Origin: an uncultured Bacteroidia bacterium
GTDB lineage: Bacteria > Bacteroidota > Bacteroidia > Bacteroidales > UBA932
NCBI GenBank assembly: GCA_902779765.1
Contig: CACZCQ010000017.1
Coordinates: 1 to 38,914, forward strand
Direction: 5' to 3'
DNA: 38,914 nucleotides
The translations under genes were made by a program, and so were the position numbers. Below are positions 1 through 13,815 of the stretch, piece by piece. Position 1 is the stretch's first letter, and each line of letters opens with the position of its first letter. The notes under the pieces were generated by a model that was not told the origin of the DNA, did no database searches, and saw only the letters and a program-made list of their open reading frames with translations.

Positions 1-1
1 C

Positions 2-664
2 ACCAAGTACGATGTGATCGCGCTGGAAGATATGGCCTACCTCTGCATGGATTTCAGGAGTGACCGCTCCAAGCCATTCAAACCGCCGTTCCAACCCACA
101 GTGGCGAGGTACACGGACAATTATGCGATTATGATTTCCGCCTCAAAGATATTCAGTTACGCAGGCGAAAGGGTCGGTCTCGTGGCTATCTCCCAGAAAC
201 TCTACGAGCGTGAATATCCTGAATTGAAGGAAAGGTACGGCCTTTCCCGATTCGGCGACAATTTCGTGCTTACATATATATATGTCAACACTTCCGGCTG
301 CTCCAGGTCTGCCCAGAACGCAATGTCTGAGATGATGGAGGCTTCTGTCAGCGGCAAGTACGATTTCGTAGGCGAAGTCAAGGAATATGCCCGCAGGGCC
401 CGTCGTTCCAAGGAGATCTTCTTCAAACACGGTTTCTCACTGGTATATGACAAGGACCTCGACCAGGAGGTGAGCGACGGTTTCTTCTATACCGTTGGAT
501 ACAAGGGTATGAAAGGCAGCGACTTGCTGTATGACCTGATGCGCTGCGGTATAAGCGCCATTACGCTCACTGCAACCAGAAGCAAGCAGCAGGGGATCCG
601 TGTCTGCGTGTCGATGTTGAATTCGGATGAAGATTTCTTCAAGCTGCGGCCGACGAGGCGATGA
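2..664 (+). CDS. PLP-dependent class I/II aminotransferase, C-terminal half (5' end outside window)
   Basis: This is the last 220 or so residues of a fold-type I, pyridoxal-phosphate-dependent aminotransferase. The reading frame is open from base 2 and its start lies before the window. The motif SASKIFSYAGERVG carries the probable Schiff-base lysine, encoded at 146-148, and upstream lies the ALEDMAY stretch expected to hold the cofactor-contacting acidic residue. The rest (VKEYARRARRSKEIFFKHGF, then an SAITLTAT-type segment) matches the C-terminal domain of a Bacteroidetes aminotransferase of roughly 440 residues, recognised from memory. The substrate cannot be deduced. The stop codon overlaps the ATG of the next gene (ATGA), which suggests translational coupling with the CoA-transferase-like gene. 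Confidence 0.85.
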   Translation, partial: TKYDVIALEDMAYLCMDFRSDRSKPFKPPFQPTVARYTDNYAIMISASKIFSYAGERVGLVAISQKLYEREYPELKERYGLSRFGDNFVLTYIYVNTSGCSRSAQNAMSEMMEASVSGKYDFVGEVKEYARRARRSKEIFFKHGFSLVYDKDLDQEVSDGFFYTVGYKGMKGSDLLYDLMRCGISAITLTATRSKQQGIRVCVSMLNSDEDFFKLRPTRR

Positions 665-1935
665 CATTGGTCCGGTCAGGAGACTGGGTGTTCTTCCAGG
701 GAAGCACTTCCGTTCCTGTCATACTTCAGGAAGCACTTGCGAGACGCCACGAAGAGCTTCGTGACGTGAAGATAGTTTCAGGATTCAATATCACCAAGGG
801 ACCGGCACCATTCTGTAAGCCTGAGTACAGGGATTCATTTGTAGTAAACAGCCTGTTCCTGTGTGCTGACCAGCGACAGTATGTCGCCCAGGGCTATGGC
901 AGCCTGATCCCAGGTTTCCTGAGCGACCTTCCTGCGCTGATCCGCAGGCGTGAGATCCCGATAGACGTGGCTTGCATCAACTGCTCGCTGCCGGATGAGA
1001 ACGGTTACTGCAGTTACAACATCTCCGCCGACCTGGCCCAGCCGGCCGTGGAATCCGCCCGGGTAGTGATCGCACAGGTCAACAAGAGCATTCCTTATCT
1101 GTATGGTACTGCCATGATCCATAAATCGGATATTACTGCGGCCGTCGAGTGTGACGATCCGCCCGTAGACATGCAGTTCGGACCGCCTACAGAAATCGAG
1201 GCGGCCATCGGAGCCCATATCGCGGAGGAGATTCCTGACGGGGCTACCTTGCAGATCGGTGTAGGTGGTATTCCAAACGCTACCCTGAACGGACTCAGGA
1301 ACCACAAGCATCTCGGCCTCCATACCGAGGCTATGACTGACGGAGTATTCAGGCTCATGCAGTCCGGTGTGATTGACAACTCCATGAAGAAATATGAGCC
1401 CGGCCGCAGCGTCGCCTCGCTCGCATTAGGTTCCAGGCACATGTACGAGTTCATAGACCACAACAAGGATTGTATATTCTATGATGTGGGAGTGACCAAC
1501 GATCCCTCGCTTATACGGATGAACCCCAATGCAGTGGCCATCAATTCAGCGATAGAGATTGACTTGACCGGACAGATCTGTGCGGACAGCATAGGCGACA
1601 TGATTTTCTCGTCCGTCGGCGGCCAGCACGACTTCATGTACGGAGCATCGCTCTCCGAGGGAGGAAAAACCTTCATCGCCATGCCGTCCAGGACTGCGAA
1701 GGGGAGGGGAAAGATAGTCGCACACCTGGCTCCCGGAGCCGGGGTCGTCACCACCCGTTTCCAGACCCAGTACGTTGTCACTGAATATGGTTGCGTGTAT
1801 CTTCGCAACAAGAACCTCGCAGAGCGTGCCAAGGCTTTGATATCCATCGCCCATCCCGATGACCGCGAAGCCCTCGACCGCGAGGCCTTCGCCCGTTTCG
1901 GCTACACCTACCACCGCCTTTCGATGAAACCATAA
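661..1935 (+). CDS. Acetyl-CoA hydrolase/transferase family protein (4-hydroxybutyrate or butyrate CoA-transferase-like)
   Basis: This 424-residue protein belongs to the acetyl-CoA hydrolase/transferase family, which moves CoA between acyl-CoA and a free carboxylate such as acetate. Seen in the sequence: the glycine-rich motif IGVGGIPNATL, the LHTEAMTDGVFRLM segment, INSAIEIDLTGQICADSIG with a glutamate (E299) at the position expected for the catalytic residue that forms the glutamyl-CoA intermediate, and a C-terminal VTEYGCVYLR motif. The closest remembered relatives are 4-hydroxybutyrate and butyryl-CoA:acetate CoA-transferases; succinyl-CoA:acetate transferase is also possible. The start overlaps the aminotransferase stop. 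No ketoacid or butyrate pathway genes are nearby to settle the substrate. Confidence 0.88.
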   Translation: MTLVRSGDWVFFQGSTSVPVILQEALARRHEELRDVKIVSGFNITKGPAPFCKPEYRDSFVVNSLFLCADQRQYVAQGYGSLIPGFLSDLPALIRRREIPIDVACINCSLPDENGYCSYNISADLAQPAVESARVVIAQVNKSIPYLYGTAMIHKSDITAAVECDDPPVDMQFGPPTEIEAAIGAHIAEEIPDGATLQIGVGGIPNATLNGLRNHKHLGLHTEAMTDGVFRLMQSGVIDNSMKKYEPGRSVASLALGSRHMYEFIDHNKDCIFYDVGVTNDPSLIRMNPNAVAINSAIEIDLTGQICADSIGDMIFSSVGGQHDFMYGASLSEGGKTFIAMPSRTAKGRGKIVAHLAPGAGVVTTRFQTQYVVTEYGCVYLRNKNLAERAKALISIAHPDDREALDREAFARFGYTYHRLSMKP

Positions 1936-1937
1936 AT

Positions 1938-1959
1938 GGTCCCTGAGCTTGTCGAAGGG
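1938..1959 (+). repeat. Short imperfect palindrome of the ggtc-N-ctgagc...cgaag-N-g type, standalone copy
   Basis: Directly after the CoA-transferase stop lies a 22-bp unit, ggtccctgagc followed by ttgtcgaaggg, whose ends (CCCT and AGGG) can pair. It aligns 17/22 with the unit at 30384-30405. Two of the differences are a compensatory swap (CCCT/AGGG here, CGCT/AGCG there), as expected if a hairpin is maintained. From memory, near-identical sequences recur between genes in many bacterial genomes. It may add to transcription termination here, together with the next repeat. Confidence 0.65.
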
Positions 1960-1978
1960 CCGAAGGGCCCCCTTAACT

Positions 1979-2071
1979 CCAGGGCCGGGAATCTATACGA
2001 TTTCCCGGCCTTAGCGTATCAATTAGCACTCCAAGGCCACGTATTACCCCATTTCCCCGGCCGTAGAGTCT
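1979..2071 (+). repeat. 93-bp double-hairpin REP/BIME-like element, copy A
   Basis: Copy A of an element found three times in the window (also 4148-4240 and 5881-5973), all exactly 93 bp. It consists of hairpin 1 (arms around GGCCGGGAA and TTCCCGGCC), a spacer containing GCGTAT and TTAGCACTCC, and hairpin 2 (arms around AAGGCC and GGCCGT, ending GAGTCT). Copy A has the most mismatches in its stems. It sits after the CoA-transferase gene and before the DUF4252/sigma operon, in the same orientation as copy B. With the short palindrome at 1938-1959, it makes this gap a compound of two repeat families. Confidence 0.85.
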
Positions 2072-2162
2072 CATTTTGCTGGGTATTTTAAAATATTCCC
2101 TATACTAAGCGTAACATTTTCCTGCCTTCTCCGTCTTTATTATTGGCATGCCGGAAAAACGC

Positions 2163-2170
2163 TAAATTTG
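2163..2170 (+). promoter_or_regulatory. Bacteroidetes-type -7 box (TAAATTTG)
   Basis: TAAATTTG matches the Bacteroidetes housekeeping -7 consensus TAnnTTTG. A TTG at 2143-2145 could be the -33 element, though the spacing is a little short. The ATG at 2176 follows only five bases after the box, so the transcript would be leaderless or nearly so. Confidence 0.55.
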
Positions 2171-2175
2171 TAGAG

Positions 2176-2673
2176 ATGAAAAGATACTTATTATTGATTA
2201 CTCTTGCTCTGTCCCTTTGCCCATTTTGCCTGGCAGGGAATAGCGGCCAGGATAATATCAGACGGATAAACCAACTAGTCAGCGAGTACTCGTCGCATCC
2301 TGATTTCAATGTCGTTCGCCTGGGAAGGCTCGGTCTCGCAGCCGTCAAGGTAGTCATAAGGCATGACCTTGATGAGGACAGTCTGGCCTTGCTGAACGCG
2401 ATCAAAGACATCAAGCAGATTACTATCGCTGATTACGAAGACTGTCCTGCTGATGTCAGGGACCGTTTCGCTTCTCGTCTGTCCAAGCTTCTGGATAAGG
2501 ATATGCTCCTGATGGAGGCAAAGGACTCAGGTGAGAAGATGGAAATCTACGGGGAGCCTTCTGAAAGAGGCGATGAATTGACCGACCTTATCCTGAACGT
2601 TCCCGGAAGCGGAGCCCTTATCTGCATCCGTGGCAGGCTCAAGATGAAGGATGTCGCCAGGATCATGGATTAA
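2176..2673 (+). CDS. DUF4252-like secreted protein, first of three paralogues
   Basis: This 165-residue protein has an N-terminal signal peptide (MKRYLLLITLALSLCPFCLA). The start is set at 2176 because the signal peptide begins there and a -7 box lies immediately upstream. A longer frame from 2143 would begin with non-signal residues. The body resembles the 3599 and 4299 products: an N-terminal LxxxY...VxLGxL region, a central IKQITIADYED stretch, MLLMEAKDSGEKMEIYG, and a C-terminal GALICIRGRLKMKDVARIMD. This is the layout of DUF4252, a Bacteroidetes family of unknown function commonly located beside an ECF sigma factor. It lies 12 bp before the sigma gene and is probably co-transcribed with it. 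Its divergence from the 3599 protein makes the family call moderate. Confidence 0.7.
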   Translation: MKRYLLLITLALSLCPFCLAGNSGQDNIRRINQLVSEYSSHPDFNVVRLGRLGLAAVKVVIRHDLDEDSLALLNAIKDIKQITIADYEDCPADVRDRFASRLSKLLDKDMLLMEAKDSGEKMEIYGEPSERGDELTDLILNVPGSGALICIRGRLKMKDVARIMD

Positions 2674-2685
2674 GTAGTTTTAGCC

Positions 2686-3195
2686 ATGAGTGCTGAAGAA
2701 TTCAATGGAATATGGTTGCCTCTGGCGGGAAGATTCTACCGCGTGGCATACTATATCCTTGAATCGCAGGAGGATGCCGAGGATGCGGTACAGGATCTGT
2801 TCGCCAGGCTCTGGAAACTGCGCTCGACATTGGGTGGCATAAAGAATCCGGTTGCTTTCGGCATAACATCCATAAGGAATATATGCCTGGACAAGATAAG
2901 GAGCCGTTCTTCATCCCGGACAGTCAGTCCTGCTCCTGAATCGTTCACTTCGCTGCCGGATCCTGATGCAGACATTGACCGTCTGATCGTGGACAAGGAG
3001 AATATGGGGATGATAAGGTCCTGCATGGCCAGGCTCCCCTCGATGCAGCGCAAAGTTTTGGAAATGAGGGTGTTTGAAAATATCCCATATCCCGAAATAG
3101 CCCGGCGGACAGGGCTCTCGGAAGTCAATGTAAGGGTCAAACTAAGCAATGCCCGGAAGAATTTGAAAAGAATGATTGAACATGAAGACGATTGA
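2686..3195 (+). CDS. ECF-type RNA polymerase sigma factor
   Basis: This 169-residue protein has the two domains of an extracytoplasmic-function sigma factor. Region 2 is near residues 10-75, with DAEDAVQDLFARLWK, which is the core-binding and -10 recognition helix. Region 4 is near residues 115-165, with LPSMQRKVLEMRVFENIPYPEIARRTG, a helix-turn-helix that reads the -35-like element. The length is normal for the family. It lies between two DUF4252-like genes and overlaps the next gene by 14 bp, so it is very likely translated together with its membrane partner. It probably responds to an envelope signal and autoregulates the cluster; that is inferred from gene order only. Confidence 0.92.
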   Translation: MSAEEFNGIWLPLAGRFYRVAYYILESQEDAEDAVQDLFARLWKLRSTLGGIKNPVAFGITSIRNICLDKIRSRSSSRTVSPAPESFTSLPDPDADIDRLIVDKENMGMIRSCMARLPSMQRKVLEMRVFENIPYPEIARRTGLSEVNVRVKLSNARKNLKRMIEHEDD

Positions 3196-3586
3196 TGAAA
3201 TAGAGAAGTTGGGCTTTGAGGATCTCGAGCGGATATCCCTCGATGAATCAATCGAGGTTCCGGACGGACTCGAATCCAGGATCCTTGACAGGACCTCGGG
3301 CCTTCGGAAGGAATCGTGGTTCGGCAGGATGACCGGCCGTCGGCCTGTCTGGTATATCGGTATCGCCGCATCCCTTGCCGTCATTGCAGGAATCGGCTTC
3401 GCCTGGCTCGACCGTCCTAAACCTCTTCAGGACACTTTCGATGACCCTATGCTGGCTTATGCCGCTGTGGAAGAAGCTCTTAACAAAATGGCTTCGACCG
3501 TAGAAGTGGGAGTCAACTCGGTTGCGATGAGTGACGAACTGTTCCGCAAACCGGCAGAGGTAATCCAATCGATAAACAACAAGTAA
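3182..3586 (+). CDS. Single-pass membrane protein, putative anti-sigma or signalling partner
   Basis: This is a 134-residue protein with an acidic N-terminal cytoplasmic region, one transmembrane segment at about residues 57-78 (WYIGIAASLAVIAGIGFAWL) and a short external tail of about 55 residues. The ATG at 3182 was chosen; a TTG two codons upstream is unlikely. It begins inside the sigma gene (14-bp overlap), the position and topology expected of an anti-sigma factor. No zinc-finger anti-sigma motif (HxxxCxxC) is present, so the role is inferred from context alone. It is followed 12 bp later by a DUF4252 gene. Confidence 0.7.
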   Translation: MKTIDEIEKLGFEDLERISLDESIEVPDGLESRILDRTSGLRKESWFGRMTGRRPVWYIGIAASLAVIAGIGFAWLDRPKPLQDTFDDPMLAYAAVEEALNKMASTVEVGVNSVAMSDELFRKPAEVIQSINNK

Positions 3587-3598
3587 AACGAATATATC

Positions 3599-4090
3599 AT
3601 GAAAAGAATAGTATCAATTGCAATAATCCTTCTTGTGTCCCTCGCTGCACAGGCTCAAGACTATAGGGGTCTCTACCAGAAATATTCTGATGAAGAGAAT
3701 GTTACTGCGGTCTACATTTCTCCTGCAATGTTCAAACTTATCGGCAAACTGCCCGAAGTACATATCAATGAAGGTGATGTGGACTTCGCGCCCCTGATCA
3801 AGTCCATGACAGGTTTCTATCTGCTGCAGACTGAAGACAAGGCTCTCGCCGAGAAAATCAACAAGGATATCAGCCGGGTCGTTGACGGAAAGAAATTCGA
3901 ACTCCTGATGGAAGTCAAGGAGAAAGGAGAGAAGGTCAATATCTTTTCCCTTGGAGACAAGGATTTCCTCAAGAGCCTGGTCCTGACCGCATTCCAGGGG
4001 GATGAGACAGTATTCATTTCTATCGACGGCCTCATGAAGAGGGATGATGTGGAGAACGCCCTCGGTGCTGTCGCCAAAGACATGATGTAA
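3599..4090 (+). CDS. DUF4252 domain-containing secreted protein, second paralogue
   Basis: This 163-residue protein has a signal peptide (MKRIVSIAIILLVSLAAQAQ) and then a full DUF4252 domain: YRGLYQKYSDEENVTAVYIS, a PLIKSMTGFYLL strand, KFELLMEVKEKGEKVNIF, and a C-terminal TVFISIDGLMKRDDVENAL. The function is unknown. DUF4252 proteins are usually encoded beside an ECF sigma factor in Bacteroidetes, as here. It is the best family match of the three paralogues. It closes the sigma operon and is followed by the double-hairpin repeat at 4148, which could also act as a terminator. Confidence 0.85.
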   Translation: MKRIVSIAIILLVSLAAQAQDYRGLYQKYSDEENVTAVYISPAMFKLIGKLPEVHINEGDVDFAPLIKSMTGFYLLQTEDKALAEKINKDISRVVDGKKFELLMEVKEKGEKVNIFSLGDKDFLKSLVLTAFQGDETVFISIDGLMKRDDVENALGAVAKDMM

Positions 4091-4147
4091 TCAGCAGACA
4101 CTATAACATATGGCAATCCATCGGTAATCTTTTGACGCCGATATATT

Positions 4148-4240
4148 CAAAGGCCGGGAAATCGCATTGATTCCCGGACTTGGCGTATTATTTAGCACTC
4201 CACGGCCACGATTAGGCCGCAATCCCCGGCCGTGGAGTCT
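4148..4240 (+). repeat. 93-bp double-hairpin REP/BIME-like element, copy B
   Basis: Copy B has the best hairpin 2: an 11-bp perfect stem ACTCCACGGCC / GGCCGTGGAGT around a 20-base loop. Hairpin 1 (AGGCCGGGAA / TTCCCGG) has one mismatch near its base. It is in the same orientation as copy A and inverted relative to copy C. B and C align without gaps over 93 bp with about 15 differences, most of them in the loop of hairpin 2. It separates the sigma operon from the third DUF4252-like gene. Confidence 0.9.
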
Positions 4241-4277
4241 GGTCAAGGGCCTTACATTGCATGAAATATTATTTCAT

Positions 4278-4285
4278 TATCTTTG
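4278..4285 (+). promoter_or_regulatory. Bacteroidetes-type promoter (TTG then TATCTTTG)
   Basis: TATCTTTG matches the TAnnTTTG -7 consensus, and a TTG at 4257-4259 lies 18 bp upstream as a possible -33 element. The ATG at 4299 is 13 bases downstream. This gives the third DUF4252-like gene its own promoter downstream of repeat copy B. Confidence 0.6.
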
Positions 4286-4298
4286 TGATGCCATTATC

Positions 4299-4844
4299 AT
4301 GCATAAGAAGTTATTCATACTGCTGACACTTGTGTTTTTGTTCCCGGCTATTCCGACGAAAGGCCAGGAGCCAGACTCGACGGTCATAGTCAGTGCGGGT
4401 TATGAAGATAGTTTCAATAGTGTCATCGCTGTTATGGAGGAATATGACGGCCGCAGCAACGTTTCGCTGATGAAGCTAGGGAAACTTGCGATGACTATGG
4501 GAAAGACCGTCGGCAGGGCAGGAAGCGAGTGGACCAGGAAAGTTGCAAAGGCTTTCAAGAGAGTGAATACCGTATATATGCTTGAATATGGAGAAAGTTC
4601 TCCACGGCTGAGGGAAGAGATCGAGTCGAGGGTCACCTCATATCTTCCTACCGAGCATATGATTTTGCGTAACGGTAGCGGAGAGCTGGTATTTGACGAG
4701 ACCTACGGTCAGGTCTCCGAAGACGGCAAACATGTCTCCGACCTCATAATAATCATGTATGACCAATCGGTCGTGTGCATAAAAGGTACTGTCCTGAGAA
4801 GCGATGTCGATCGCATTGTCCGGCGCCTGAACAAGCAGTTGTAG
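4299..4844 (+). CDS. DUF4252-like secreted protein, third paralogue
   Basis: This 181-residue protein has a signal peptide (MHKKLFILLTLVFLFPAIPTKG). The start is placed at 4299: the frame is open upstream as far as 4167, but that part is repeat copy B and the promoter. The domain parallels the other two: NVSLMKLGKLAMTMGKTV, a VNTVYMLEYGESS strand, HMILRNGSGELVFDETYG, and a C-terminal SVVCIKGTVLRSDVDRIV. It is more similar to the 2176 product than to the 3599 product in the LGKLA and IKG/IRG segments. It has its own promoter and is followed by a strong terminator. The function is unknown. Confidence 0.7.
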   Translation: MHKKLFILLTLVFLFPAIPTKGQEPDSTVIVSAGYEDSFNSVIAVMEEYDGRSNVSLMKLGKLAMTMGKTVGRAGSEWTRKVAKAFKRVNTVYMLEYGESSPRLREEIESRVTSYLPTEHMILRNGSGELVFDETYGQVSEDGKHVSDLIIIMYDQSVVCIKGTVLRSDVDRIVRRLNKQL

Positions 4845-4867
4845 AGGTAACGATAAAAAAAGAATTT

Positions 4868-4915
4868 AAACCCCTCGAAGATTTCTTATCACTGATTTCT
4901 CCGAGGGGTTTTCTC
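4868..4915 (+). terminator. Intrinsic terminator
   Basis: The arms AACCCCTCG (4869-4877) and CGAGGGGTT (4902-4910) form a nine-pair stem followed by a short T-rich run. It ends the third DUF4252-like gene and insulates the RAYT gene. Confidence 0.8.
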
Positions 4916-4949
4916 GTTATCTTGAGCCGATCAATAACCTGACTTTGCT

Positions 4950-5867
4950 ATGAACAGATTGGAGCGCCTGAAGCAGTGGGCCGAGTACCGGACGTGGCCG
5001 GAAGGCTACTACCACCTTGTCATAGATTCTTATGAAAAAGGACAACTCTTTCACAATGAATCACAATTCGTCGCGGGGATGAATACCGTTGCCCTGGGGC
5101 AGTATATCCATAAGGTTAGGATCCTGGCTTTCAACTTGATGGTCAACCACGCTCACTTCTTGATATGGACAACCGGGAACAACGCCGTGGACTTTTTCTT
5201 GTTCCAAAAGAAACGGATCAATGCCAGGCTGATAGAAGACGGCTTCCCTCCATTGCCGGACGATCTCGGATTCAAGTTGATAGCCGTTGATACCCGGGAT
5301 CCTTACCAACTGAAAAACAACCTGGTCTATATTGCAAGGAACCCGTATAAGGTCAACTGCAAGGTTACGCCATCCGGCTATCTTTGGGGTTCCAACTATT
5401 TGATGTTCAGCAATATCTATAAAGCTATACAGAAGAAGCAGATTAAGGATTATTCCGTCGATTATATGCGGAAAGTCCTTCGATCCAAGATAAGGCTGCC
5501 TGGCGACTACATGTTCAATGACACCCTTGGAATGATTCTCCCAGAATCATATGTCTCGTTTAAAGAAGCGGAAGATATATTGAAGACCTCATGGAACTAC
5601 TGCATCGACCTTGTAAGGAATATGGATGCATATGTCAGGATTTCTGAAAGGATCGGCGGCAGGATCGAGATCAACGACCAGGAACTGGATACAATAATCT
5701 ACGCGATTTGCAAGAACAAATACAACGTGAAATCCTATCTGGAACTCAGTTTGGACGACAGGTGCCGCCTAGGAGTCAGGTTATTCAAGGATTATCATAT
5801 CGATGTCAAAAGGATATGCCGCAGGATAGGTATCGAGTACTCCGTAATGAACGAATTGGTGAAATAG
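4950..5867 (+). CDS. REP-associated tyrosine transposase (RAYT), Y1_Tnp/IS200-like HUH family
   Basis: This is a 305-residue protein of the Y1_Tnp superfamily, the single-strand DNA endonucleases related to IS200/IS605 TnpA. The HUH pair is H67-A-H69 in LMVNHAHFLIW. The probable catalytic tyrosine is Y127 in NNLVYIARNPYKVN, which matches the YIxRNP motif of RAYTs. After the catalytic domain (about residues 1-160) comes an extension ending in LSLDDRCRLGVRLF...DVKRICRRIGI, which resembles a helix-turn-helix. RAYTs act on REP hairpins rather than on their own terminal repeats. Here three 93-bp double-hairpin repeats lie within 3 kb, one beginning 13 bp after the stop codon. No terminal inverted repeats typical of a DDE insertion sequence are seen. 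Confidence 0.85.
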   Translation: MNRLERLKQWAEYRTWPEGYYHLVIDSYEKGQLFHNESQFVAGMNTVALGQYIHKVRILAFNLMVNHAHFLIWTTGNNAVDFFLFQKKRINARLIEDGFPPLPDDLGFKLIAVDTRDPYQLKNNLVYIARNPYKVNCKVTPSGYLWGSNYLMFSNIYKAIQKKQIKDYSVDYMRKVLRSKIRLPGDYMFNDTLGMILPESYVSFKEAEDILKTSWNYCIDLVRNMDAYVRISERIGGRIEINDQELDTIIYAICKNKYNVKSYLELSLDDRCRLGVRLFKDYHIDVKRICRRIGIEYSVMNELVK

Positions 5868-5880
5868 TCCGGTCTTGTCC

Positions 5881-5973
5881 AGACTCCAAGGCCGTGAAAA
5901 GGGGGAGGATCGTGGCCGCAGAGTGCTAAATAGTACGCCAAGGCCGGGAATCAATGCGATTTCCCGGCCTTGG
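5881..5973 (-). repeat. 93-bp double-hairpin REP/BIME-like element, copy C (inverted)
   Basis: Copy C is the reverse complement of copies A and B. Its hairpin 1 is perfect: 13-bp arms CCAAGGCCGGGAA (5938-5950) and TTCCCGGCCTTGG (5961-5973) around a 10-base loop. Hairpin 2 has three mismatches and a divergent loop. It occupies the gap between the convergent RAYT and nadE genes, 13 bp after the RAYT stop, and could serve as a bidirectional terminator. It shares the spacer core TTAGCACTC with the other copies. Confidence 0.9.
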
Positions 5974-5999
5974 AATCATTGGTCGCCATCGGGTGTTGC

Positions 6000-8063
6000 C
6001 TACAGCCTCTCCAATTCGTCCATCCAGAGTTTTACCTTGGCGTCGGAAGGCATACGGAAGTCTCCGCGGGGTGAGAAACTCACCTGGCTGATCTTTGGAC
6101 CGTCAGGCATGCAGGAACGCTTGAACTGCTGGCTGAAGAAGCGCCAGAAGAATTTCTTGAGCCACTTGAGGATCGTCTCCTTGTCGTAGGCAGAGCCTGA
6201 GCCGGAGACGGCCGAAGGGCAGAAAGCCTGGCAGGCGAGGAAGTAGATCTTGGAAGGGGAGAACCCGTACTTCATGAAGTTGTAGATGAAGAAGTCGTGC
6301 AGTTCGTATGGTCCGATGAGGTCCTCGGTCTTCTGCTTAATCTCACCGCTTTCATGCGCGGGCATAAGTTCCGGACTGATAGGTGTTTCCGTAACATCCA
6401 TAAGGATTTCAGAGGCAGGACGTCCGGTTGAGGATTTCGCCCCGTCGAAGAGATTGTTGGCAGCCCACCGTACCAGATGCTTGATCAAGGTCTTGGGAAC
6501 CGATGCGTTCACTCCGTACATCGACATGTGGTCCCCGTTATAGGTACACCACCCGAGGGCCAGCTCGGACAGGTCGCCCGTGCCGATCACTATCCCGTTC
6601 TCCTGGTTGGCGATGTCCATGAGTATCTGGGTCCTTTCACGGGCCTGGGCATTTTCGTAAGTCGAATCCATCACGGCAGGATCATGACCGATGTCCTTGA
6701 AATGCTGTTCTACGGCAGAAACTACGGAAATCTCCCTCGAGGTGATTCCGATGGCCTCCATGAGCTCAACGGCATTTGACTTGGTGCGGCTGGTCGTTCC
6801 CAATCCGGGCATCGTGATTCCGATAATTTCAGAGCGGGGGATTCCGAGCCTTTCAAAAGCCATGGCTGCGACGATCAGTGCCAGCGTGCTGTCCAGGCCT
6901 CCGGAAACACCGATGACGGCTTTCCTGCATCCTATGTGTTCCATCCTGGCTGCCAGACCCGTAGCCTGGATGCGCAGGATCTCCCTGGACCTCTTTGCGA
7001 TTTCAAGCGCATCGCCTTCAGGTAGGAATGGATGAGGCTCCACCTTCCTGTAGAGTTTCTTGCTGAAGTCGGTCGGAGCGGCTGCCCCGATGTCCATCCT
7101 GGAGTAGAGTCCTGAATATTCACTTGCAGATGTCCCGTCCGGAGCCATGCCCCTGAATGAATTCTTTTTCTGTCTCTGGATGTCGAGCATCCCTATATCC
7201 AGGTCGGCATAGATGATGGAATCATCCATCTGGAACCGCTTGTTCTCAGCGATCATAACTCCGTTCTCGCAAATGATCGATGAACCGCCGTAGACAGTAT
7301 CCATCGTCGATTCACCATAACCTGCAGAGCAGTAGATATAACCTGAGACCGTGCGACCGGACTGATTGGAAATCAGTTCCTTACGCTGATGATGCTTGGC
7401 CATTACCTCGTTGGAGGCGGAGATGTTTACGATTACCTGTGCCCCTGATGGCGCAAGGAATGAGGACGGAGGGATCGGCGTCCAGAAATCCTCGCAGATC
7501 TCAATCCCGAAGGTGGCGTCTCCCACTGTGAACAGGAGGTTGGGGGATATGTTGCAGCGCTGTCCACAGTACTTGATATCCGAGTCGAAACCGTCCCTGT
7601 AGTAGTTGCGGCCATCGTCTATGAAACGTCCTGTGACCTGGTTGCCGGGGGACAGGAAGTCGGAACCTGATGCGAACCATCTGCTTTCATCGAATTCCGC
7701 ATAGGTCGGAAGGTAGATCTTCGGGACGATTCCCTTGATCCCTCCGTTCCTGATTACGACTGCGCAGTTGTACAGCCTTCCGCGGAAACGGACAGGGGCA
7801 CCTACGACCACCGTTACATGCTTCCCCCTGCTGTGCCGGCAGATCATGTCAACCGCTTCGTCGGACTTGTCCAGAAGCAGTTTCTGGCCGAACAGGTCCA
7901 TGCAGGTATATCCTGTAACAGAAAGCTCCGGGAAGACTGCAAGTGAGGTCTTCTCCTCTTCCACTTTGTCTATCAGGCGGCAGATCGCTTCGCAGTTGAA
8001 GTCCACGTCAGCCACCTTGATCCGCGGCACGGCGGCCGCGACCCTGAAGAAACCGTAATCCAT
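6000..8063 (-). CDS. nadE: Glutamine-dependent NAD+ synthetase
   Basis: This 687-residue cytoplasmic enzyme makes NAD+ from nicotinate adenine dinucleotide, ATP and glutamine. The N-terminal nitrilase-type glutaminase domain (about residues 1-300) has a visible E-K-C triad: E46 in FPELSVTGY, K115 in PKIYLPTY and C190 in GIEICEDFW. The C-terminal synthetase domain begins with the PP-loop SGGLDS at residues 387-392, followed by ITMPGLGTTSRT and IGTGDLSELALGW. The length and two-domain layout are those of the standard fused bacterial type. It is the last gene of a minus-strand operon with a nucleosidase-type pathway (13 bp after the preceding gene) and converges on the RAYT. Confidence 0.97.
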   Translation of the reverse strand: MDYGFFRVAAAVPRIKVADVDFNCEAICRLIDKVEEEKTSLAVFPELSVTGYTCMDLFGQKLLLDKSDEAVDMICRHSRGKHVTVVVGAPVRFRGRLYNCAVVIRNGGIKGIVPKIYLPTYAEFDESRWFASGSDFLSPGNQVTGRFIDDGRNYYRDGFDSDIKYCGQRCNISPNLLFTVGDATFGIEICEDFWTPIPPSSFLAPSGAQVIVNISASNEVMAKHHQRKELISNQSGRTVSGYIYCSAGYGESTMDTVYGGSSIICENGVMIAENKRFQMDDSIIYADLDIGMLDIQRQKKNSFRGMAPDGTSASEYSGLYSRMDIGAAAPTDFSKKLYRKVEPHPFLPEGDALEIAKRSREILRIQATGLAARMEHIGCRKAVIGVSGGLDSTLALIVAAMAFERLGIPRSEIIGITMPGLGTTSRTKSNAVELMEAIGITSREISVVSAVEQHFKDIGHDPAVMDSTYENAQARERTQILMDIANQENGIVIGTGDLSELALGWCTYNGDHMSMYGVNASVPKTLIKHLVRWAANNLFDGAKSSTGRPASEILMDVTETPISPELMPAHESGEIKQKTEDLIGPYELHDFFIYNFMKYGFSPSKIYFLACQAFCPSAVSGSGSAYDKETILKWLKKFFWRFFSQQFKRSCMPDGPKISQVSFSPRGDFRMPSDAKVKLWMDELERL

Positions 8064-8076
8064 ATTGAGAGTATGA

Positions 8077-8307
8077 CTATGAATTCGCGGGATCGTTATT
8101 CCTGTCTTCGTCTGCCAGGCGCTCCCTCTCTTTCCTGCGGGAGTTGTTGACAGTCACTGCGATTCCCCTGTACAGGAAATAGAGGCCGATCAGCACAATG
8201 CAGATATTCGCCCAGAGTTTGCCTTCACCGGCGATAAGCGTGGATGCTCCGAAATAGAGTATGAAAGCCGCGAAGACAAAGTAAATTATGTTCATGTATT
8301 TTCCCAT
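8077..8307 (-). CDS. Small two-helix membrane protein of unknown function
   Basis: This 76-residue protein has two predicted transmembrane helices (about residues 6-25, IIYFVFAAFILYFGASTLIA, and 32-50, LWANICIVLIGLYFLYRGIAV) and a charged C-terminal tail of about 22 residues (RRKERERLADEDRNNDP). An alternative ATG lies four codons into the frame. It sits in an operon, 9 bp after punA and 13 bp before nadE. No family was recognised. Its place between two cytoplasmic enzymes does not reveal a role. Confidence 0.75.
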   Translation of the reverse strand: MGKYMNIIYFVFAAFILYFGASTLIAGEGKLWANICIVLIGLYFLYRGIAVTVNNSRRKERERLADEDRNNDPANS

Positions 8308-8316
8308 AGCCTGAAA

Positions 8317-9144
8317 CTAAAGTGATTCGATGAGTTTCTTGAATATCGAGCACATCCTGCCGGCCGCAGCGTCGGCAGCCTTGATGACATCCTCGCCGTC
8401 GTTCTTGTAGTCGGCGTCGTAATGGTCGTGGGCCTCGTTCGTGACAACTGACATCCCGAATACGGGGATATCGGAATGGCGTGCGGTTATCACCTCAGGA
8501 ATCGTCGACATGCCGGTCACGTCTCCGCCGATGATGCGGATATACTTGTACTCGGAAGGGGTCTCGTAAGTCGGGCCCGTGCCTCCGAAATATACGCCCT
8601 TATGGACCTTGATACCCATGTCCAATGCTATCTTCTCGGCCCTTTCGATCAAGCCGAGGTCGTATGGCCTGGTCATGTCGGGGAATCTGGGACCGAATTC
8701 ATCCATATTGGGACCGATGAGGGGATTCGGCTGCTGGCAGATATGGTCCTTGATGATCATCAAGTCACCGACCTTGTACTCGTAATTCACTCCACCGGCC
8801 GCATTTGATACGAACAGGTATTTGATTCCTATTGAAACCATCACCCTGGTCGGTAGCGTGACCATGTCCATCGAGTAACCTTCGTAGTAGTGTATGCGTC
8901 CCTGCATCATGATAACTTCCTTTCCTCCGAGCTCGCCTACGATGAAGTTGCCCTTGTGGCCGATAGCAGTAGAAGCCGGGAATCCGGGGATGGTCTTGTA
9001 GGGGATGACCAAGGTGTTCTGAACCTCGTCGGCAAGTCTTCCCAAGCCACTGCCGAGGATTATTCCGACAAGCGGTTTGCGGTCACCGAGCTGCTCCTTG
9101 AGGAATTCGGCGGCCTTGTGGATTCTTTCTATTCTTTCGTCCAT
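8317..9144 (-). CDS. punA: Purine nucleoside phosphorylase (PNP-I, inosine/guanosine type)
   Basis: This 275-residue enzyme phosphorolyses inosine and guanosine (and deoxy forms) to base plus (deoxy)ribose 1-phosphate. Seen: the phosphate-binding GSGLG near residue 31, GRIHYYEGYSMDMVTLPTRV, the VSNAAGGVN motif, the base-site YFGGTGPTYETPSEYK, and GMSTIPEVITARHSDIPVFGMSVVTNEA. This matches the trimeric mammalian-like PNP class. It lies 9 bp after the amidohydrolase gene, so deaminated nucleosides from that enzyme could feed it. Confidence 0.93.
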   Translation of the reverse strand: MDERIERIHKAAEFLKEQLGDRKPLVGIILGSGLGRLADEVQNTLVIPYKTIPGFPASTAIGHKGNFIVGELGGKEVIMMQGRIHYYEGYSMDMVTLPTRVMVSIGIKYLFVSNAAGGVNYEYKVGDLMIIKDHICQQPNPLIGPNMDEFGPRFPDMTRPYDLGLIERAEKIALDMGIKVHKGVYFGGTGPTYETPSEYKYIRIIGGDVTGMSTIPEVITARHSDIPVFGMSVVTNEAHDHYDADYKNDGEDVIKAADAAAGRMCSIFKKLIESL

Positions 9145-11427: not shown

Positions 11428-12285
11428 TTAGTCAAGGATTTTGATGCGGATGTTACGATACCATACATCGTTGCCATGATCCTGGAAGCCGATGTATCCC
11501 TCATGTGCGTCGCCGCCGAGGTTGTTCAGCAGTTCGAAGGCGAGAGGCCAAGCTTCCTGAGAGAACTTGCTGGCCTGGAGCATCTCGGTCCACTTCGGGG
11601 TCCAGAGATGATACTCGAGGACATTCTCTCCGTTCTGGGCGTGGACTACGGTACCCTGGTAGACCATGATGCTACCGGTGTTCCACTGCTCGTAAGGATT
11701 CTGGTTCTGCGGGTTGGCCGGGATCATGTCATACAGGGAAGCGCTCTTGCGGTTGCCGTCCTTTCCAAGCTTTGCATCCGGATGGTTCTCGTTGTCGAGG
11801 ATCTGGTATTCAGGTGCAGAGATGTAGATAGGCTCATACTGTACGGTGCCGTCTTCCTTCTTGGTAGTGACCTCGCGGGCGAGATAGAAGACTCCGGAGT
11901 TTCCTCCCTTGGAGATCTTCCAGTCAAACTTCATCTCGAAATTCTTGAACTTCTTGGTGAAGATGATGTCGCCACCGTCTCCAGACTGGGACTCACCTGC
12001 GCCGGTGCCGGTGAACTTCAGGCAGCCGTCCTCGATTGTCCAGCGGGCAGGAACATTCTCCTTGCCGTAGCCTCTCCAACCGTTGAGGGAAGTTCCGTCG
12101 AAAATAACGATATATCCTTCGTCGTCGACAGGGAATCCTGCCAGGTCGACCTGGGCATTCTCAACTACTTCGTAAGCAGGCACTGCGCTGGTTTCTTCAG
12201 CAGCGGCTGCCGCCTTCTTGTTCTTGCATGATGCCAGGCAGACAACAGCGGCGGCACATGCGACATAAAGCAAAACTTTCTTCAT
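11428..12285 (-). CDS. DUF1080 (3-keto-disaccharide hydrolase-type) lipoprotein
   Basis: This 285-residue protein has a lipoprotein signal (lipobox LASC, lipidated Cys near residue 20), an alanine-rich linker, then a DUF1080 jelly-roll domain: FDGTSLNGWRGYG, FKNFEMKFDWKISKGGNSGVFYLA, PEYQILDNENHPDA, and a C-terminal GYIGFQDHGNDVWYRNIRI. DUF1080 proteins are concanavalin-like hydrolases; some cleave glycosidic bonds of 3-keto-glycosides. The upstream oxidoreductase could generate a 3-keto group and the downstream TIM-barrel lipoprotein could act on products. That pathway is inferred from family knowledge and gene order. It lies 27 bp after the oxidoreductase gene. Confidence 0.9.
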   Translation of the reverse strand: MKKVLLYVACAAAVVCLASCKNKKAAAAAEETSAVPAYEVVENAQVDLAGFPVDDEGYIVIFDGTSLNGWRGYGKENVPARWTIEDGCLKFTGTGAGESQSGDGGDIIFTKKFKNFEMKFDWKISKGGNSGVFYLAREVTTKKEDGTVQYEPIYISAPEYQILDNENHPDAKLGKDGNRKSASLYDMIPANPQNQNPYEQWNTGSIMVYQGTVVHAQNGENVLEYHLWTPKWTEMLQASKFSQEAWPLAFELLNNLGGDAHEGYIGFQDHGNDVWYRNIRIKILD

Positions 12286-12312: not shown

Positions 12313-13815
12313 TTATTCAGGCATGTCAGGAAGGACATATCCCTCACGATACTGGCGCTTGATAAGGCTGGCGGCGAACTCGCGGGCATCGACAGGATCT
12401 GAATAGGTCTTGTTGAATGTCGGGTGACCATCCTTGATTGTGAAACCGTCGTGGATCTGGAACCTGACCTTTGCATCGGCGGGGATGTTGGTGAACTTCA
12501 TGTTCGGGCCATCCCAGTTGAGCACCTGGTTCAGTCCCTGGAGCCTTACGGCTGCGACACCGAGGTCAACCATCTCTACGAAAGGACCTGCCTCGCAGAA
12601 GTCGGAAGCTGCACGGGTGAAGTTGTCAGGATCGACCATGCACTCCTTGACGGCACGGATCCAGTCCTGCTGATGGGATACGGTAACCTCGCGGAGTACG
12701 TGGGGAACCTCAGGCTTGCGGCCGGAGAGGAGATAAGGCTTGTTGCCATAGCAACCTACGACCATGATGTCCTTGGTGCCGTAGAAAATGCTGCAGCCAC
12801 CATCGGTATTGAGGTTGACACCCTCGGGAATTCCCTCGGGACGCTCGGGCTTGAAGCCGCCGTCATACCAGCGGACCTCGACCTCGGGAAGTGCGAGCTT
12901 GGGAAGGTTCTCACGGGCGGGGAAGGTCAGCTTGATCATCTCAGCGCTCGGGCAGCAGTCGGTCAGGACCGGAGTGGAGCTTGCCTGGGCCTTGATAGGA
13001 TAGCCGAGCTTGAGACCCTTGAACGGGACGTGCATGATGTGGCATGCCATGTCACCCATAGCACCGGTACCGAAGTCCCACCAGCCGCGGAAGTTCCAGG
13101 GATGGTAGATCTCGTTGTAGTCGCGCATGGGAGCGGGGCCGATGAAGGCATCCCAGTTGAGGGTTGAAGGGATAGGCTGTACCTCGGTGGGTTTCTCGAG
13201 ACCCTGAGGCCAGATAGGACGGTCGGTGAAGCAGTCGACGCGGGTTACTTCGCCGATCTCACCGTTCCACAGCCACTCGATTGCCTGGCGGGTGCCGGCG
13301 CCTGATGCGCCCTGGTTACCCATCTGGGTTGCTACCTTGTACTTCGCTGCAAGTTTGGTAAGGAGCCTGGCCTCATAAACCGTAAGGGTGAGCGGCTTCT
13401 CGCAGTAGACATGCTTGCCGGCGGCGATTGCCTGGGCGGCGATGATTGCATGGGTATGGTCGGCGGTCGCGATCATCACGGCGTCGGCCTTGTCCAGCAT
13501 CTCGTCGAACATGACGCGGTAGTCATTGTACTTCTTGGCCTGCGGATATCTCTCGAAGATATGGTTCGCATACTTCCAGTCGACATCGCAGAGTCCGATG
13601 AAGTTCTCGGTCTCCATCTCGCGGAGGTCAGCTGCTCCACGTCCTCCGATACCTACACCGAGGATGTTGAGCTTGTCGATAGGGGCAACCTTCTTCTTTT
13701 TCTTGTTGTCCTTCGGAGTTGCTCCGGCGATGATGATGTTGGGTGCTACTGCCAGTCCGGCAGCCATTGCTGTTCCCTTCTTCAGGAAAGAGCGTCTTGA
13801 GATGTCATTACTCAT
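12313..13815 (-). CDS. Tat-exported Gfo/Idh/MocA family oxidoreductase
   Basis: This 500-residue NAD(P)-dependent oxidoreductase begins with a twin-arginine signal (SRRSFLKKGTAMAAGLAVAP, RR at residues 7-8), so it is probably exported folded with its cofactor to the periplasm. Seen: the Rossmann motif LGVGIGGRGAADL, then AVMIATADHTHA, GKHVYCEKPLT with the conserved EKP lysine, and TQMGNQGASG. The C-terminal segment ends in KRQYREGYVLPDMPE. This is the long Bacteroidetes type. It is first in an operon with DUF1080 and a TIM-barrel lipoprotein, the set associated with 3-keto-glycoside formation and cleavage. The tatA and tatC genes lie further along in the same window. Confidence 0.92.
   Translation of the reverse strand: MSNDISRRSFLKKGTAMAAGLAVAPNIIIAGATPKDNKKKKKVAPIDKLNILGVGIGGRGAADLREMETENFIGLCDVDWKYANHIFERYPQAKKYNDYRVMFDEMLDKADAVMIATADHTHAIIAAQAIAAGKHVYCEKPLTLTVYEARLLTKLAAKYKVATQMGNQGASGAGTRQAIEWLWNGEIGEVTRVDCFTDRPIWPQGLEKPTEVQPIPSTLNWDAFIGPAPMRDYNEIYHPWNFRGWWDFGTGAMGDMACHIMHVPFKGLKLGYPIKAQASSTPVLTDCCPSAEMIKLTFPARENLPKLALPEVEVRWYDGGFKPERPEGIPEGVNLNTDGGCSIFYGTKDIMVVGCYGNKPYLLSGRKPEVPHVLREVTVSHQQDWIRAVKECMVDPDNFTRAASDFCEAGPFVEMVDLGVAAVRLQGLNQVLNWDGPNMKFTNIPADAKVRFQIHDGFTIKDGHPTFNKTYSDPVDAREFAASLIKRQYREGYVLPDMPE

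Follow-up and report, generated by a model that had tools for sequence, protein, structure and literature searches.

The locus described here raises the question of whether a single-strand nuclease may write the hairpin repeats that lie near its own gene, and of what would measure the repeated unit. The window, a stretch of 38,914 nucleotides, is contig C17 of the 2.48-Mb genome of a gut Bacteroidales bacterium (31 contigs, 97.75% complete; G000 in this analysis). It carries a gene for a RAYT-like protein (REP-associated tyrosine transposase, REP being a repetitive extragenic palindrome) and three copies, A, B and C, of a repeat made of two hairpins:

4950..5867, + strand: RAYT-like HUH/Y1 protein of 305 amino acids, with the HUH motif NHAH at residues 66-69 and a candidate catalytic Tyr127 in YIARNP
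1979..2071, + strand: repeat copy A, hairpins at about 1983-2010 and 2028-2069, 52 bp apart, separating the CoA-transferase gene from the DUF4252 operon
4148..4240, + strand: repeat copy B, hairpins at about 4150-4181 and 4197-4238, 52 bp apart
5881..5973, - strand: repeat copy C, hairpins at about 5938-5973 and 5883-5924, 52 bp apart, where the RAYT and NAD synthase genes converge

Our preferred answer, to which we give a probability of about 0.62, is that the locus belongs to a new type of RAYT-REP system, found widely in a single Bacteroidales family, whose HUH nucleases multiply units of about 51–52 nt head to tail and spread them.

Arrays of near-constant period flank many RAYT genes

We analysed 128 RAYT loci from the genus and the family, 127 of them distinct (L208 and L133 being one gene) and with L209 excluded as a duplicate of L086. 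The loci are the best matches per genome or were taken down the match list, and do not form a random draw. A flank of up to 700 bp was scored as periodic when an ungapped self-match at any lag of 25–130 bp beat all 60 dinucleotide shuffles. Significant periodicity was found in 140 of 255 flanks, and 99 of these lie at 50–53 bp (5 at 50, 54 at 51, 35 at 52 and 5 at 53). The same test found none of the 128 gene bodies periodic, and 9 of 96 stretches taken 1.5–2.2 kb away, three of them at 51–53 bp. An array of 50–53 bp is present on at least one side in 67 of the 128 loci and on both sides in 32. The period averages 51.3 bp (standard deviation 0.67) in 78 arrays, the predicted hairpin span having a standard deviation of 12.6, which is a noisy estimate; the longest arrays reach 13 units.

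A run with 40 shuffles on 78 loci gave 91/156 flanks, 2/78 bodies and 8/82 far stretches. In a second set of 25 loci from other genomes, containing no gene of the first set, 26 of 49 flanks were significant, 19 of them at 51–53 bp, and none of the 25 bodies was; because this set includes orthologous loci, it does not amount to 25 independent events. Tandem Repeats Finder (TRF) reported 64 rows of period 50–53 in 167 kb beside RAYTs (with an array of this period, or of twice the period, at 41 of 124 loci), 2 rows in 85 kb taken 1.5–2.5 kb from RAYTs, and 1 row in 492 kb around the NAD synthase gene (the window and 29 relatives' loci), located in L121. Five of these 30 NAD synthase sequences carry window-type RAYT genes, and the window-type repeats there went unseen by TRF because the two-hairpin repeats are too diverged. 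Outside the family, eight loci with weak HUH-core matches had no 50–53 bp array by TRF.

Some RAYT flanks show other repeat lengths. Tandem repeats of 25–26 bp, about half the usual unit, were seen at L037 (6829-6907) and at L254, L236, L298 and L297, and arrays with a unit of 74–75 bp, possibly a second length class, run to about nine units beside the RAYTs of L058 and L100. A RAYT homologue of the window genome that is split over two frames (C5:177247-177964, in L037) has an array of about 12 units of 52 bp on one side, and its other flank mixes repeats of 26 and 52 bp.

Unit sequences track the RAYT

In the 28 loci with units on both sides, the median alignment score was 47.5 within a locus vs 8 between loci, and the two sides were in direct orientation in 25 cases and inverted in 3. 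Scores of at least 25 between loci were reached by 2/2 pairs whose RAYTs are more than 75% identical and by 2/4 pairs at 60–75%; below 60% identity, at most about 2% of pairs per bin did so (1947 pairs). Unit likeness thus tracks RAYT relatedness, the palindromic repeat at these loci being the gene's own and diversifying with it, and this comparison rules out one common sequence family behind all arrays.

Two observations concern changes in unit number and copies away from the gene. L248 and L255 lie in two genomes and their RAYTs are 98.7% identical; upstream they differ by a single gap of exactly 102 bp, which is two units. L121 has an array (11805-12107) with no RAYT on that 20-kb locus, and its unit is 84–88% alike to that of an array that accompanies a RAYT on another contig of that genome; further copies lie on other contigs there and none in G000. 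We also noticed a CAAGGGT/ACCCTTG hairpin array in L121, L122 (about 8220-8400) and L125 (about 12450-12570); in all three relatives the locus has no RAYT and the array occupies the corresponding intergenic region, close to the CoA-transferase gene.

The window repeats are genuine and dispersed in the genome

An earlier note on this DNA had described three 93-bp repeats with two hairpins each, and the description holds. Gapless alignment gives 67/93 identities for A and B, 78/93 (84%) for B and C, and 66/93 for A and C, while elsewhere in the window, clear of all three copies, B matches at most 41/93 (both strands scanned, top six per strand). Folded as single-stranded DNA, the copies have z scores of -2.4 (A), -4.3 (B) and -3.5 (C), and dinucleotide shuffles folded equally well in 4/200, 0/200 and 1/200 cases, respectively. 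A chance origin is ruled out by this alignment background and by the shuffle folding. The 13-bp stem in hairpin 1 of C and the 11-bp stem in hairpin 2 of B are as previously described. Within each copy the two hairpins are themselves homologous at a lag of exactly 52 bp (54–63% identity, the best among lags 35–69).

The three copies had been said to lie around the Y1_Tnp gene. This is accurate for C, 13 bp past the RAYT stop; B and A are farther off, B being 0.7 kb upstream with a DUF4252-like gene between and A 2.9 kb upstream, past five genes. All three, as read, do sit behind genes, as the note had said.

The family extends past the locus, and a repeat restricted to three copies is ruled out: three additional two-hairpin copies lie on other contigs of the window genome (C5:185952, C4:5780 and C16:6324). 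Nine copies, six of them from G000 and three from G353 and G354, were used to train a covariance model, which was run against 12 genomes at E<=0.1. In G000 it matched six places, in G353 four with more than 50 bits and in G354 two; the places outside the training set are G353:C37, G353:C26 and G354:C11. The other nine genomes gave at most 49.4 bits, and four of them gave no match. Best RAYT identity is 74% in G353, 72% in G354, 66–67% in G360-G362, 48% in G356 and at most 39% in the other five. Abundance in relatives lacking the enzyme, which the note had named as evidence against a functional pair, was not seen, as copies above 50 bits occur only in the three of these 12 genomes having a RAYT at least 72% identical. 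At the same locus in L133, L138 and L143, where the RAYT is 66–67% identical, the hairpin sequence is different and, by reading, two hairpins are again 52 bp apart; the flanks there are in direct orientation. Another unit, in G359, occupies about seven places at E<1e-7. The Rfam search had no match in window positions 1-9000 at E<=0.5.

The gene encodes a divergent HUH/Y1 protein

The product of 4950-5867 is a divergent HUH/Y1 (RAYT-like) protein and, by homology, a likely single-strand nuclease. Family profiles match it below their cut-offs: Pfam Y1_Tnp at 21.1 bits (cut-off 23, E 3.6e-4) and, far below, NCBIfam REP_Tyr_transpos at 19 bits (cut-off 80, E 1e-3). In an alignment of 22 sequences, His67 and His69 of the HUH motif and Tyr127 and Asn131 of the Y...N motif are invariant, and Pfam Y1_Tnp matches 19 of the 22 homologues at E<=1 (best 1.4e-5). 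The protein thus has the HUH motif and the single Tyr in Y...N(P) of the HUH/Y1 (IS200/IS605-RAYT) superfamily; among clade members the Tyr motif reads Y[IV]xRNP or YxxxN. An AlphaFold model from five sequences was too poor to use (mean pLDDT 54.9). The top matches of a PDB profile search are unrelated by name (Csm2, E 0.015), and transposase-named chains follow at E 0.026, among them 2xm3, which we take to be ISDra2 TnpA.

The window genome has five further homologous loci, including the split one, with paralogues 25–37% identical to the window protein. Matches were found in 51 of 61 genomes of the genus sample (own genome included), up to 11 each, the best identity outside the window genome being 36%. 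The family sample gave matches at E<=1e-15 in 74 of 149 genomes (own included) and 12 of 25 genera, up to 12 per genome; for some genomes even the best match is weak (1e-16 to 1e-25). Of the 149 genomes sampled from the order, 10 have a match at E<=1e-10. Two of these, the window genome among them, belong to the window's genus; the remaining eight have partial profile matches only, at 3.4e-12 to 8.0e-11. Five homologue pairs of the clade have dN/dS values of 0.045–0.070, and a sixth, the window gene vs that of L113, is saturated at synonymous sites.

The units are enriched in CAAAA and not in GT[AG]G

Motifs were tested in 59 units, L255, L079, L224 and L102 being left out of 63 loci as close relatives. 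The best dyad score averages 8.36 vs 5.12 in shuffled units, and 32 of the 59 have dyads clearly above shuffles. Folding of single-unit consensus sequences was noisy (median z -1.7, 41% below -2; 78 arrays). GT[AG]G anywhere in the unit, on either strand, is not enriched (24/59 vs 26.2 under a first-order Markov expectation), and the CGTC tag is not enriched in the units either. GTAG alone occurs in 4/59 units; its apparent depletion in plain shuffles is a composition effect, since the Markov control expects 6.1.

The word CAAAA is found in 39/59 units, vs 6.3 expected from plain shuffles and 19.2 from the Markov model (maximum 29 in 300 simulations). When positions are taken from the dyad axis modulo half a unit, 16 of the 28 units with a usable dyad have it inside a single 3-bp window, and none of 500 random rotations placed more than 14 in one. 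This register is suggestive only, because four of six other words tried (AAAAC, TTTTC, GCAAA and the self-complementary GGCC) are likewise phased and A/T tracts in the stems help to place the dyad. CAAAA may be considered a candidate guide motif. By eye, GAAAA stands at a similar place in the window family.

Comparison with known systems

The Y1 enzyme is shared with IS200/IS605 elements (IS608, ISDra2). The end hairpins of these elements act on the same strand, which matches the direct flanking arrays found here. Near-identical intragenomic copies, which mark such elements, are not seen in the window genome, where the paralogues have the low identities given above.

As far as the consulted portions of Nunvar 2010 (PMC2817692) describe them, gammaproteobacterial RAYT/REP systems (TnpA_REP, REPtron) share with our loci an HUH/Y1 enzyme, flanking palindromes, co-diversification of enzyme and palindrome and, in some species, accumulation near the rayt gene. 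They differ in that in a REPtron the foot of the hairpin bears the tetranucleotide GT[AG]G, the two REPs beside the gene are inverted relative to each other and the copy number is high (usually >100), whereas here GT[AG]G is not enriched, the flanks are mostly direct at clade level and the repeat occupies only six places in the window genome. The earlier note had seen what looked like a mobile hairpin with a dedicated nuclease, equivalent to the REP hairpin pairs (bacterial interspersed mosaic elements, BIMEs) of Proteobacteria. The dedicated pair is well supported; the equation with REPs and BIMEs is unsupported for the clade, because GT[AG]G is not enriched, the units are head-to-tail, the flanks are mostly direct and the copy number is low.

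TnpA_Y1 subclass 2.6, in the parts of Quentin 2018 consulted (PMC6006769), resembles our loci in several ways: it comes from Bacteroidetes, lacks GT[AG]G, and has atypical flanking secondary structures with copies elsewhere in the genome. Its published motifs are NH[LIV]H, WQ and YIH[QN]NP, with a mean of 1.8 copies. Compared with that published description, the present proteins fit in their Bacteroidales origin and differ in having Y[IV]xRNP or YxxxN and in numbering up to 12 in a genome. The main text of PMC6006769 uses none of the words tandem, array, spacing and periodic. REPINs (REP doublets that form hairpins) and BIMEs, in the excerpts consulted of Bertels 2011 (PMC3116915) and of PMC8266576, also have a two-hairpin unit, copies away from the RAYT and, for BIMEs, tandem copies; according to these excerpts, strain SBW25 has some REP tandem arrays with spacings of 72 and 112 bp and evenly spaced GI repeats. 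REPINs and BIMEs pair REPs in inverse orientation, whereas here the units are head-to-tail and one spacing recurs with unrelated sequences.

Set against what the consulted parts of PMC6006769, PMC3733652, PMC8266576, PMC3116915 and PMC2817692 describe, this is a RAYT-REP system in kind, and atypical flanking structures in subclass 2.6, tandem BIMEs and some REP tandem arrays are already known from them. Among the matches listed in searches of open-access PubMed Central text, there was no mention of one unit length across unrelated repeats, of mostly direct flanking arrays or of a phased CAAAA.

A cut-and-join model and its alternatives

In the model that we prefer, each RAYT would recognise its own palindromic unit and nick it when the DNA is single-stranded, lagging-strand synthesis being the likeliest occasion. 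Cutting and rejoining would take place between neighbouring units of one strand, at corresponding points, as when IS200/IS605 transposases join left and right ends; circular intermediates may arise, and the release or addition of whole units of about 51–52 nt would leave head-to-tail arrays on either side of the RAYT's own gene. Occasionally, one to several units would be seeded elsewhere in the genome. The sequences themselves show the arrays with their near-constant period, a unit shared by the two flanks of a RAYT, units that track RAYT relatedness, one clean two-unit step between close genomes, and dispersed copies where the cognate RAYT is present; recognition, nicking, circles and a period set by the enzyme are inferred from them. 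The TnpA enzymes of IS200/IS605 work on hairpins of one strand. For such an enzyme to cut and join any pair of units and yield whole-unit products, direct arrays of private hairpins flanking the gene are the layout required, and its action would account for the arrays, the unit-step changes and the seeding elsewhere. To our knowledge, the way in which RAYTs amplify hairpins is not settled. In this family, natural pairs of RAYT and hairpin are numerous, their sequences are unrelated yet their period is common, and close genomes differ by whole units, so that one can test whether the enzyme writes the array and how the unit is measured. Single-strand nucleases whose recognition sequences are apparently private would be a further gain, and the family suggests enzymes that copy or maintain repeats of a set length.

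Several observations weigh against this reading. By design, the flank test lets about 1 in 61 flanks through by chance; 61 of the 128 loci have no 50–53 bp array by this test, and other array periods occur (25–30, 36, 72–77 and 83–85 bp). Dyads of 27 of the 59 consensus units are not clearly above shuffles. The downstream gaps between L248 and L255 are not clean multiples of the unit, and whole-unit tandem insertions and deletions would equally come from plain slippage. For the dispersed copy at C5:185952, the upstream genes are conserved in 4 of the 5 genomes searched and no clean gap marks an empty site. Lastly, B and C of the window are inverted across the RAYT, contrary to 25 of 28 loci.

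The near-constant period despite unrelated stems implies that something measures about 51–52 bp. The enzyme might set it; helical phasing, a minimal circle and the enzyme's geometry when placed on a pair of hairpins are candidate devices. A bolder version, which we hold tentatively and would not bet on, is that a ruler rather than a sequence is conserved: stems would be unrelated, most arrays would have about 51–52 nt (about five helical turns) per unit, a phased CAAAA would take the role of GTAG, and arrays would grow by self-targeted insertion of unit-length single-stranded circles. If true, this would be an HUH enzyme writing tandem repeats of fixed length.

The same tight period is what one would look for if the RAYT were instead a domesticated DNA-binding regulator and the arrays iteron-like operators about five turns apart on one face of the DNA, growing by replication slippage. 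The period is tight while the predicted hairpin span varies, the minor sets near 72–77 and 83–85 bp would be about seven and eight turns, and the low dN/dS values indicate purifying selection. We nevertheless consider a regulator unlikely, as the catalytic His and Tyr are retained, units at other genome loci are unexplained by a pure regulator, and five turns of 10.5 bp would not give exactly the observed mean of 51.3; as to strict helical phasing, periods near 72–77 and 83–85 bp are few. A classical REP-RAYT (BIME/REPIN) system of different look in one family, its period inherited from one ancestral array, would explain an HUH/Y1 enzyme whose palindromic repeats diversify with it, and the inverted B and C fit it. 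In the consulted excerpts, BIMEs are frequently in consecutive tandem copies (PMC8266576) and REPs accumulate near rayt genes in some species (PMC2817692). Units are unrelated below about 60% RAYT identity, though, so that a period inherited from one array would have had to persist after all likeness of sequence was gone, and GT[AG]G is not enriched; we regard this origin as improbable. That the repeats are transcription terminators or mRNA-end hairpins gathered behind genes, with the RAYT a bystander, seems to us very hard to sustain. A, B and C do fold and are all 3' of genes, but no T run follows any of them as read, Rfam matches nothing in window positions 1-9000 at E<=0.5, and arrays of up to 13 units, their enrichment beside RAYTs and a unit sequence that tracks the RAYT speak against it.

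Neighbouring genes and inversion of the locus

The gene order is CoA-transferase, A, DUF4252, ECF (extracytoplasmic function) sigma factor, anti-sigma-like, DUF4252, B, DUF4252-like, terminator-like hairpin, RAYT, C and, in the opposite direction, NAD synthase. The further features are:

2176..4844, + strand: neighbouring genes DUF4252, ECF sigma factor, anti-sigma-like, DUF4252 and DUF4252-like (Pfam, NCBIfam), inverted together with the RAYT relative to L113
4870..4913, + strand: terminator-like hairpin followed by a T run, by reading; it separates the upstream operon from the RAYT

The gap between the two genes flanking B is 211 bp in the window vs less than 45 bp, repeat-free, in L113 and L132. 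Between the same two neighbours, the DUF4252/sigma operon and the RAYT are opposite in orientation in L113 (11069-14821, compared with window 1979-5973) and, over two contigs, in G354 (L112, L288). The window is the flipped form relative to L113 and G354, and hairpin repeats stand at both L113 junctions. A misassembly of this metagenome-assembled genome (MAG) may conceivably have produced the inversion, yet A and C are only 71% identical. L132 has no RAYT at the locus and keeps one hairpin per junction; the best RAYT match in its genome is 23% identical. In L117 and L118 the operon is flipped with no RAYT and no match to the window repeat in either, the L118 junctions as read having no array, so that the repeats are not required for every flip.

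Three DUF4252-type genes surround an ECF sigma/anti-sigma pair. NCBIfam places the GFO_1088 sigma match above its cut-off and GFO_1090 below, and the third DUF4252 match is under the Pfam cut-off. Among the matches listed in a scan of genome contigs, the nearest relatives of the NAD synthase are from ruminant-gut MAGs labelled 'Bacteroidales' or 'Bacteroidia' (up to 89% identity), and a named relative, Candidatus Cryptobacteroides faecihippi, is 76% identical over residues 2-373.

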